Part shown: positions 22,253 to 24,374 of the stretch, piece by piece
How the letters are laid out: every line of letters starts with the position of its first letter
How positions within the stretch are numbered: the first letter of the stretch is position 1
Assembly (NCBI GenBank): GCA_001603115.1
Contig: LVBG01000031.1
Span: forward strand, 1-34,695
Source: Spirochaetales bacterium Spiro_05
Lineage (GTDB): Bacteria > Spirochaetota > Spirochaetia > Sphaerochaetales > Sphaerochaetaceae
Reading direction: 5' to 3'
DNA length: 34,695 nt
Notes under the pieces: generated by a model
Told to the model about the DNA's origin: nothing
Database searches by the model: none
What the model saw: the letters and a program-made list of their open reading frames with translations, nothing else
Position numbers and translations under genes: made by a program

Positions 22253-22726
<474 letters not shown>

Positions 22727-22740
22727 AACCAAAACAGATG

Positions 22741-22780
22741 AAAAACCGGCTTTTTCTTACGAAAAGGTCGGTTTTTCTTT
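22741..22780 (+). terminator. Strong intrinsic terminator after rpsG
   Basis: A 16-bp stem (22741-22756 with 22761-22776, with G-U pairs) and a TTAC loop ends in a T-rich tail (TTTTTCTTT). The A-rich 5' arm makes it look bidirectional. It closes the rpoBC-rpsLG transcript just before the tuf promoter. Confidence 0.92.
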
Positions 22781-22806
22781 ATCTTTATGGAATTAGTCTG
22801 CATCGC

Positions 22807-22835
22807 TTGACATAAAAAGTGCTTTCGCATATAGT
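22807..22835 (+). promoter_or_regulatory. Strong promoter of tuf
   Basis: A consensus TTGACA (22807-22812), a 17-bp spacer and TATAGT (22830-22835) predict transcription from about 22842. With the terminator upstream, it makes tuf and the following S10/spc genes an independent unit. Confidence 0.85.
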
Positions 22836-22841
22836 GCTTAA

Positions 22842-23117
22842 GGTGTCCGCATAGGTATACCCATGCGGTGCTATGAAGAGCCAAACCGATTATTGCAGAA
22901 GCAATGATAAGGTGGTTTCAGGCAGTACGAAGTTTTTTATAAAACTTATACTATGTCGTCAGGGTGGATTCTCCAGACCTGCCGACCTCTGGAATCCTCT
23001 TATGAATTTGTTTCCCCATAATTAGTTTGTCTCAATAGGAATGGTAAAGGCTTTGGGCCTTTATGAGCACATATTAATTATTTTTTGTGACAGTCAAAGA
23101 AACGTCACAAGGAGGAA
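22842..23117 (+). ncRNA. Long structured leader RNA of tuf
   Basis: The predicted leader is about 280 nt, far longer than a simple untranslated region. Helices read by eye are: 22847-22868 (CCGCAT/ATGCGG); a composite arm 22868-22928 closed by GTGCT/AGTAC with CC/GG, AAACC/GGTTT and an 8-bp ATTATTGC/GCAATGAT tip; 22930-22947 (AAGTTTT/AAAACTT); 22966-22997 (10 bp with a 2-nt bulge); 23045-23063 (TAAAGGC/GCCTTTA); and 23085-23110 (TTGTGAC/GTCACAA), which ends exactly at the GGAGG site. I recognise no known riboswitch, SRP RNA, RNase P or tmRNA signature. It may be a regulatory leader or a processed small RNA. Confidence 0.55.
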
Positions 23118-23120
23118 ATG

Positions 23121-24311
23121 ATGGCAAAAGAGAAATTTCAGAGGACGAAGCCACACGTAAACGTAGGAACCATCGGTCACGTTGACCATGGCAAGACTAC
23201 CCTTACCGCCGCAATTACCATGCATTGTGCAAAGCTGTTTGGCGACAAGGCTCTTAACTACGACGCAATTGACAACGCCCCTGAGGAAAAAGAGCGTGGT
23301 ATCACCATCAACACCAGACACGTTGAGTATCAGTCCACCAATAGGCACTATGCTCACGTTGACTGCCCGGGACACGCTGACTACATCAAGAACATGATCA
23401 CCGGTGCTGCACAGATGGACGGCGCCATCATCGTCGTTGCAGCAACTGACGGTGCCATGGCACAGACCAAGGAGCACATCCTTCTTGCTCGCCAGGTTGG
23501 TGTACCCTGTCTCGTTGTTTTCATCAACAAGTGTGACCAGGTTGACGATCCCGAGTTGATCGACCTCGTTGAGGAAGAGATGCGCGACCTGCTTCGCGAT
23601 TACGGTTTTGACGGCGACAACGCTCCTGTCATCCGCGGTAGTGCCTATGAGGCCATGACCCAGCCGGACAACCCCGAAGCAACCAAGTGCCTTGACGAAC
23701 TGCTTGATGCCATGGATAACTTCATTCCGCTTCCGGAGCGCGCTGTTGACCAGGCCTTCCTGATGCCGATTGAGGACATCTTCTCCATCTCCGGTCGTGG
23801 TACTGTTGTTACGGGTCGTATCGAACGCGGTATCATCAAGGTCAACGAGCCCGCTTCCATCGTCGGTATCCGCGAAACCCGCGACACCGTCGTAACCGGC
23901 GTTGAAATGTTCAACAAGCTGCTCGACGAAGGTCAGGCTGGTGATAACATTGGCGCACTGCTCCGCGGTGTTGACAAGAAGGACGTTGTTCGCGGCCAGG
24001 TTCTGGCAAAGCCCAAGTCCATCCAGCCCCACGCCAAGTTCCTTGGTACCGTATACGTACTGAGCAAGGACGAAGGTGGCCGTCACTCACCGTTCTTCGG
24101 TGGCTACCGCCCGCAGTTCTATTTCCGCACCACTGACATCACTGGTACGGTAAACCTGCCCGAAGGCAAGCAGATGGTTCTGCCTGGTGACCACACTGAT
24201 ATCATCGTTGAGCTCATTCACCCTGTCGCCATGGACAAGGGACTCCGCTTCGCTATCCGCGAGGGTGGTAGGACCGTTGCTTCTGGCCAGGTTACCGAGA
24301 TTGTCGAGTGA
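23121..24311 (+). CDS. tuf: Elongation factor Tu
   Basis: This 396-aa GTPase delivers aminoacyl-tRNA to the ribosome. The P-loop is G-H-V-D-H-G-K-T at 19-26, followed by D-C-P-G-H and N-K-C-D. Domains II and III are complete, including [19 protein letters not shown] prefer ATG 23121 (M-A-K-E-K-F), matching the family; the adjacent ATG at 23118 is also possible. GGAGG at 23111-23115 is preceded directly by a hairpin. The neighbour to the right is rpsJ rather than fusA upstream, as in some other spirochaetes. Confidence 0.98.
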
Positions 24312-24326
24312 TTTTTTGACGAATGT

Positions 24327-24365
24327 CTTGCCATCATCGGCTGATGATGGCAAGGCCCGTTTTTT
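24327..24365 (+). terminator. Hairpin with T-run between tuf and rpsJ
   Basis: A perfect 12-bp stem (24327-24338 with 24343-24354) with a GGCT loop is followed after 5 nt by six T residues (24360-24365), which run straight into the rpsJ ribosome site GGAGG. The displaced T-run suggests partial termination, which would make more EF-Tu than S10-operon message. No promoter for rpsJ is visible in the 63-bp spacer. Confidence 0.75.
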
Positions 24366-24374
24366 GGAGGAATA

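Follow-up and report, generated by a model that had tools for sequence, protein, structure and literature searches.

EF-Tu ranks among the most abundant proteins of bacteria, which need several times more of it than of ribosomes; in E. coli, the tufB gene is under autogenous control by EF-Tu. To our knowledge, how the EF-Tu level is set apart from that of neighboring ribosomal proteins has been little studied outside E. coli. This work presents a leader RNA of the EF-Tu gene (tuf) from a 34,695-nt stretch of spirochaete DNA (referred to here as the window), taken from a 2.3-Mb draft assembly. Its likeness to tufB would be one of regulatory type, namely control of EF-Tu after transcription. Among described leader RNAs, the L4-controlled leader of the E. 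coli S10 operon (PMC10931766, in the part of its text covered) is likewise a long structured leader heading a translation operon in a similar gene neighborhood. However, the spirochaete leader precedes tuf rather than rpsJ, which follows tuf, and a consensus scan of it gave no terminator-like site that could serve attenuation. The S10 r-leader of Firmicutes is also a cis-acting RNA near rpsJ (main text of PMC7247131), whereas the spirochaete element precedes tuf; the comparison made here is one of gene position. Ribosomal-protein leader candidates in general (main texts of PMC7247131 and PMC11109978) share with it the character of a conserved structured leader of a translation gene with a limited phylogenetic range, and candidates of this kind include Treponema leaders before the L7/L12 and L20 genes (main text of PMC8040213). 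In contrast to these, the spirochaete RNA stands upstream of an elongation-factor gene, and no rRNA mimicry was found in it.

A published description of a spirochaete tuf leader was not found in open main texts, the scope of this search, with supplements outside it. The terms “tuf” and “elongation factor” occur zero times in the main texts of PMC11109978, PMC8632094, PMC8040213, and PMC7247131, and “tuf” occurs zero times in the covered text of PMC12223175; the covered text of PMC10931766 mentions tufA and no spirochaete leader. The survey in PMC8632094 covers Spirochaetes genomes, and its supplement may hold an unnamed motif. We therefore place the leader as an undescribed RNA among the structured leaders of translation genes, unusual in that it stands on an elongation-factor gene in several families of one class.

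The tuf leader is real and evolutionarily conserved: it has a recurrent promoter and 5′ end, a core with compensatory changes in the P2 inner stem and in P4, a P8 stem that covaries within the family, and a consistent association with tuf. We consider it probable that it is a cis-acting RNA of the EF-Tu gene over much of Spirochaetia, in which an effector-bound core would shift access to the Shine-Dalgarno sequence so that tuf translation follows demand. Coordinates of all features are given in Table 1.

Table 1. Features of the tuf leader and its surroundings, in positions of the window
Feature	Position	Strand	Basis
Terminator-like hairpin 3′ of rpsG, parting the leader from the upstream operon	22740-22777	+	Consensus scan
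Leader promoter, TTGACA - 17 nt - TATAGT	22807-22835	+	Site scan; similar site in family leaders
tuf leader RNA	22842-23120	+	Start inferred from promoter and conserved 5′ end
P1, variable 5′-end hairpin (GGUGUCCGCAU...AUGCGGUGCU)	22842-22871	+	Predicted fold; AAGGTGTC-like 5′ end conserved, hairpin sequence variable
P2 core motif, GAGCC-AA-ACC-G-[stem]-AA-GGU-GGUUU	22878-22918	+	Inner-stem covariation; motif class-wide
P2 outer pairs, GAGCC/GGTTT and ACC/GGT, with 2-nt AA bulge	22878-22882/22914-22918 and 22885-22887/22911-22913	+	Conservation
P2 inner stem, ATTATTGC/GCAATGAT	22889-22896/22901-22908	+	Covariation
P5, junction-closing helix CAG/CUG	22919-22991 (22919-22921/22989-22991)	+	One-sided changes only
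P3, U-rich hairpin AAGUUUU/AAAACUU	22930-22947	+	Predicted fold; alignment uncertain in relatives
P4, hairpin GUCG/CGAC + CAGG/CCUG within conserved CUAUGUCG...CGACCUCUGG	22955-22986	+	Covariation
Conserved single-stranded AGUUUGUCUC, candidate Shine-Dalgarno partner	23024-23033	+	Conservation; predicted pairing
P7, hairpin UAAAGGC/GCCUUUA	23045-23063	+	Nearly invariant in 56 aligned family sequences
P8, stem UUGUGAC/GUCACAA adjoining the Shine-Dalgarno sequence	23085-23110 (23085-23091/23104-23110)	+	Covariation
tuf Shine-Dalgarno sequence, AGGAGG	23110-23115	+	Sequence; low predicted mean accessibility
tuf (EF-Tu)	23121-24311	+	Start codon revised to 23121
Terminator-like hairpin with T run in the tuf-rpsJ gap	24325-24366 (hairpin proper 24325-24356, T run after)	+	Predicted fold

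From the sizes and order of the open reading frames and the established gene order, we take the gene run of the window to be rplK-rplA-rplJ-rplL-rpoB-rpoC-rpsL-rpsG, the leader, tuf, rpsJ, rplC, rplD, and onward to secY; tuf, rpsG, rpsJ, and rplC were used as gene queries, and the remaining names follow from order and length. The sequence-only reading had proposed that a consensus promoter opens a leader of about 280 nt at this place, and comparison bears this out. With 11 of 12 consensus matches, the site is the sole promoter-like one in 22300-23500, in a sequence where the promoter count by itself is not above chance (one found; shuffles mean 1.4). Among the Sphaerochaetaceae leaders with enough upstream sequence (57 of 58), 56 carry TTGACN, 15 to 19 nt, and TAnnnT (or a CA variant) ahead of the core, with an actual spacing of 17 to 19 nt; when the upstream regions were dinucleotide-shuffled 100 times, the pattern turned up in 0.67 of 57 on average and never in more than 3. 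The one testable leader without the pattern is L185. The family promoters stand a few nucleotides before a conserved A(A)GGTGTC-like 5′ end and, because both recur in the family, we place the likely transcription start at ~22841-22842. A start near 23080, which would leave a short leader, is unsupported in sequence, since the scan of 22300-23500 gave no promoter-like site there at the threshold used. The leader runs for ~280 nt up to the tuf start codon. The ORF listing opens tuf at ATG 23118; the Shine-Dalgarno spacing and the retention of the second ATG alone in many relatives outside the genus (CTGATG, ACGATG, GAGATG) led us to place the start at 23121. In the consensus scan of 22300-23500, the only terminator-like site was the one on the rpsG side, with none inside the leader; control of translation or of mRNA life is therefore favored over attenuation.

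The leader fold (22842-23130) has a predicted energy of -91.5 kcal/mol (z = -5.0; 0 of 200 shuffles as good) and in the prediction comprises at least six helices, as had been read from the sequence. For 15 family leaders the mean z-score was -3.1 (13 at -2 or below), compared with -1.5 for 15 other 280-nt windows (6 at -2 or below, one at -5.1). The leader is thus not strongly singled out, and its folding z-score alone is weak evidence.

Within the Sphaerochaetaceae, the leader together with the first part of tuf was used as a DNA query and matched 121 of 139 family genomes at E ≤ 0.001, a figure distinct from the number of leaders because many of the weaker matches cover just the tuf coding sequence or its close approach. 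Among hits without a full locus, 60 further upstream regions were fetched by place. In all, 90 distinct upstream regions were aligned, followed by a thinned set of 60, from which L152 and L177 were omitted for want of a core-pattern match (leaving 58); L184 and L185, which are without the 3′ blocks, were also omitted from both pair-count alignments (leaving 56). Most sequences share one order of blocks: the AAGGTGTC-like 5′ end, GAGCCAAACC-stem-GGTGGTTC, the U-rich hairpin, CTATGTCG-hairpin-CGACCTCTGG, AGTTTGTCTC, TAAAGGC/GCCTTTA, and a stem against AAGGAGG.

Covariation in the tuf upstream regions of related spirochaetes had been named in advance as the check on this structure, and it was found both in the core and in P8. 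Across the junction core (22878-22994) in alignment A1 (n = 56), 87.1% of 1649 cells form standard pairs, 17 of 30 pairs have changed on both sides, and 161 cells carry double changes, compared with a mean of 57.5 in shuffles and at most 72 with slid partners; the covariation score is 0.314 versus at most 0.115 when slid, on a structure drawn from the same alignment that was used for counting, which favors that structure. Double changes support the P2 inner stem well, and P4 has them in 6 of 8 pairs, with 89.9% of cells paired. The outer P2 pairs CC/GG and ACC/GGU hardly vary and so rest on conservation, not on covariation. P5 has 94.0% of cells paired and no double changes, and P3 has 56.1%, in an uncertain alignment. 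RNAalifold independently gave P4 and paired other columns elsewhere; in particular, it joined the CCA of GAGCCAAACC to the UGG that the drawn structure assigns to P5. This UGG therefore has two possible partners, CCA/CAG near 22919-22921 or the CCA of GAGCCAAACC. Both options are retained in nearly all of the 56 relatives and are mutually exclusive, and they could constitute a switch.

The sequence-only reading had drawn a composite arm at 22868-22928 with three nested pairings, all of which occur where it put them. The ATTATTGC/GCAATGAT pairing is the covarying inner stem of P2. The other two did not stand: AAACC/GGTTT is present, but comparison favors GAGCC/GGTTT with ACC/GGT around the AA bulge, and in relatives the strands of GTGCT/AGTAC fall into separate elements, one into the variable 5′ hairpin and the other into the hairpin that follows.

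Among the well-conserved bases of the core are some that are unpaired or lie in internal loops (the AA bulge, and CUAU in the family), and they bear on whether the element could be passive, with 5′ hairpins stabilizing an abundant tuf mRNA and a stem presenting the Shine-Dalgarno sequence without any effector. Such a role would suit a highly expressed gene like tuf, and P1 does begin at the inferred 5′ end, with P7 and P8 being simple hairpins. However, the conservation of unpaired core bases exceeds what stability needs, which disfavors a mere stabilizing hairpin, and we regard a passive element as unlikely. The alignment also bears on a leader peptide or upstream ORF with incidental structure. 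While short ORFs can be seen by inspection in the window leader, loop lengths differ between relatives by non-multiples of three, and the sole conserved ATG, in CTATGTCG, reads ATG in 42 of 56 sequences, TTG in 6, AAG in 5, and ACG in 3; this explanation is very improbable.

At the 3′ end of the leader, P8 has 98.7% of its cells paired (n = 56) and 14 double-change cells, compared with at most 2 in slid controls; GTGAC/GTCAC, for instance, changes to GTGGC/GCCAC. The adjoining GGAGG is predicted to be mostly paired, with a mean unpaired probability of 0.24 over 58 leaders. Its predicted partners vary by leader and are often a U-rich sequence 5′ of P8 or a stretch 70 to 120 nt upstream, at the location of AGUUUGUCUC. 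The pairing between AGUUUGUCUC and the Shine-Dalgarno sequence showed no covariation, and its predicted form, UCUC/GAGG with a G-U pair, is weak. Outside the family, a stem with at least 5 Watson-Crick pairs lies beside the Shine-Dalgarno sequence in 22 of 52 loci, against ~11 expected from shuffles, and is thus a less general feature than within it; in one group of Treponema loci, GUGUC- and GACAC-type strands flank the Shine-Dalgarno sequence (by inspection).

Two divergent family members of genus g46, L184 and L185, keep the core and are without P7 and the family form of P8. At the P8 place, inspection shows another short stem in L185, and L184 has a CCCC able to pair with its Shine-Dalgarno region. 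Their retention of the core suggests that it is the essential part of the RNA.

Beyond the family, the distribution was followed with a model, R1, built from alignment A1, and with simple patterns. In the window's own genome, where 150 of 334 first-look candidates were scored, R1 gave a single match up to E 10. At E ≤ 0.01 it matched 40 of 392 phylum genomes, 36 of them within Sphaerochaetaceae; in three genomes from two other families (G059, G498, and G056) the match ends 124 to 134 nt before tuf. The match in G297, weak (E 1e-3) and 1244 nt from the tuf start, was taken as chance. When R1 was run up to E 5 on 80 named loci fetched by rpsG, it gave 36 matches, 13 strong (E < 1e-5) and 23 weak (E 0.014 to 1.8), of which 35 sit 31 to 255 nt upstream of tuf; the exception, in L127, lies on the opposite strand, outside the tuf upstream region. 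In eight of the loci (L065, L066, L068, L070, L073, L078, L088, and L089) the rpsG-tuf gap measures 878 to 2377 nt, and there the match ends 100 to 118 nt before the tuf start. Because this position relative to tuf is kept, the element in these loci evidently stays with tuf and not with rpsG.

A simpler motif, CCA[AG]ACC followed after 8 to 170 nt by [AC]GGTGG, is present in the 400 nt before tuf in 54 of the 65 named loci with tuf, mostly from Spirochaetia; members of the window's family and one probable chimera are counted among the 65, and 11 are without the motif. The reverse complements gave 0 of 65, and 100 rounds of dinucleotide shuffling gave 0.09 of 65 on average and at most 1; of 1620 other windows from these loci, 6 had the motif. 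The chimera, L134 (JAISLI010000036.1, labelled Desulfovibrio), carries a spirochaete-type rpsG and tuf leader with apparently no rpsJ after tuf and, by inspection, rpmG, tRNA, secE, and nusG look-alikes on the 3′ side. It is probably a contig joined within tuf and was dropped as evidence for S10 linkage, while still being counted in the 54 of 65.

The CC-AA-ACC/GGU-GG part of P2 is retained in Treponema. A stricter Treponema-form pattern, written from upstream-of-tuf sequences with hits not restricted to tuf, was run on 385 whole genomes, which may overlap the named loci. It matched 30 genomes once each, every hit lying 181 to 330 nt upstream of tuf, and the same pattern reversed matched once in the 385; in the sampled genomes of the window's family it gave no match. 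All of these distribution figures are minimum values, as R1 fits the family and the genome-wide pattern fits one Treponema form.

The two lineages pair in slightly different registers, and matched and mismatched strand energies were therefore used outside the family. Of the 52 named loci with tuf outside the family, the pattern, whose form excludes short loops, fitted 36, and these yielded 34 distinct inner stems. These pair with their own partners at -7.37 kcal/mol, compared with -4.66 kcal/mol for exchanged partners, a difference equalled in 0 of 2000 permutations. The 30 genome hits supplied 23 distinct stems, a sampling that partly overlaps the set of 34, with values of -6.91 and -5.99 kcal/mol (again 0 of 2000). 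As both sets enter related sequences separately, these figures are not strict probabilities. Outside the family, the outer flanks paired with their own partners no better than with exchanged ones (674 of 2000 permutations did as well).

We infer that an effector binds the core. It would most likely be a protein produced along with the translation machinery, and EF-Tu and ribosomal proteins are the leading candidates. Bound and free states of the core would differ in Shine-Dalgarno access through P8 and the pyrimidine-rich AGUUUGUCUC, and tuf translation would thereby follow demand; the direction and level of control are likewise parts of the proposal. Should EF-Tu be the effector, free EF-Tu in excess of aminoacyl-tRNA would bind the core and mask the ribosome binding site. 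The element is found upstream of tuf only (G297 being one weak exception), which agrees with such feedback, as does the hairpin after tuf, which would allow EF-Tu to be controlled apart from S10. Against it, Rfam scans gave no tRNA match in the leader and hence no visible tRNA-like fold. Feedback by EF-Tu is a possibility that we hold as doubtful.

The absence of a known RNA class, claimed from the sequence, was confirmed against Rfam 15: no family reached its gathering score in the leader, and up to E 10 the leader strand gave just one fragment of a lncRNA (MIAT; E 9.3, 9.7 bits against a gathering score of 75), which is not above chance. A match to Alpha_RBS lay on the opposite strand (E 0.2, 15.7 bits versus a gathering score of 38) and was rejected. 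A conserved junction with conserved unpaired bases could in principle belong to a metabolite or ion riboswitch or to a T-box-like tRNA sensor, and segment AAGGUGGUUCC resembles the T-box bulge sequence. However, no Rfam riboswitch or T-box matched up to E 10, and the consensus scan gave no terminator-like site in the leader. The GGUGGUUC strand, moreover, forms base pairs in the conserved fold, and its sequence differs among relatives (GGUGGAAC, GGUGGAGC). We judge a sensor of this kind to be quite improbable.

Mimicry of rRNA was sought at the level of sequence, with one model and one to three genomes, a scope that structure-only resemblance would escape. With filters off, R1 gave chance-level matches in three rRNA stretches (best E 2.3), and ten conserved segments compared without gaps to one rRNA operon of one genome gave none better than 60 shuffles. 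One of these R1 matches, the striking CCAAACCG...AGAGGUGG in the 23S of one spirochaete, was set aside, since the Rfam structure line pairs both strands with other, distant 23S strands. The 9-mer GAUAGGUGG, common in the Treponema form, is present in the 23S rRNA of two of three genomes (the third being in the opposite orientation, with one strand scanned). The 23S stretch that contains it is presumably part of the L1 stalk, where the rRNA partner strand is unlike the complementary leader strand. That mismatch, together with the Sphaerochaetaceae form, which reads GAUAAGGUGG, led to this candidate being dropped.

These comparisons bear on a further reading, in which the core is the target of a protein from the tuf-S10-spc run (e.g., L4, S8, or S10) that represses the operon in the manner of L4 on E. 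coli S10. Ribosomal-protein operons often carry structured leaders of this type (PMC10931766 and PMC7247131, in their covered text), and in every fetched locus on which the two genes were located, rpsJ lies downstream of tuf in the same orientation, usually at a distance of 45 to 85 nt (with exceptions at 15, 23, and 114 nt). However, similarity to rRNA was not above chance (R1 E ≥ 2.3 in the three stretches, and the ten segments in one genome), and a repressor would mainly hit EF-Tu because of the terminator-like hairpin between tuf and rpsJ. Such repression may be entertained tentatively.

The hairpin itself stands just before the rpsJ Shine-Dalgarno sequence in the window. A fold of -15 kcal/mol or better is reached by 96 of 98 distinct tuf-rpsJ gaps, all but L124 and L130; the mean is -25.4, compared with -15.2 in shuffles, and 71 gaps have a T run by the rule applied. 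In places the two arms of the hairpin have changed in concert: most of the genus has GTCTTGCC/GGCAAGAC, and L064 has AGTCTCGC/GCGAGACT. In sequence, it looks like a terminator or attenuator that parts EF-Tu output from the S10 operon, and it may determine how much EF-Tu is made relative to ribosomal proteins. This hairpin weakens the earlier suggestion that the leader transcript also feeds the S10 and spc genes, and because of it the leader may act mainly on EF-Tu. On a more speculative note, the CCARACC/GGUGG core might be an old feedback site for EF-Tu or for a gauge ribosomal protein, which together with the hairpin would set EF-Tu apart from the ribosomal proteins; we put this forward as a conjecture that we consider less likely than not. 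If feedback does operate, this would be, as far as we know, the first case of an RNA family that accompanies an elongation-factor gene through much of a bacterial class.

A conserved RNA on tuf alone in many spirochaete families offers a definite site for finding a regulator of EF-Tu, and leader and hairpin together bear on the question of how the ratio of EF-Tu to ribosomes is set. For genome annotation, it would add a new RNA family in Treponema, Sphaerochaeta, and their relatives. Two observations concern its outer range. Three loci (L085, L087, and L109) lack the CCARACC/GGUGG motif upstream of tuf and have in common another leader (GGATGGCTGAACAGATCCGCTGA with its flanks), perhaps a second leader type or a very divergent form. 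Treponema loci such as L123, L132, and L136 have further blocks 3′ of the core (GTGTGTCTGCGAA..., TTCTGGCTTAAAGTGCARCACATAA), which resemble in their order the AGTTTGTCTC and GAGCACATA blocks of the family.
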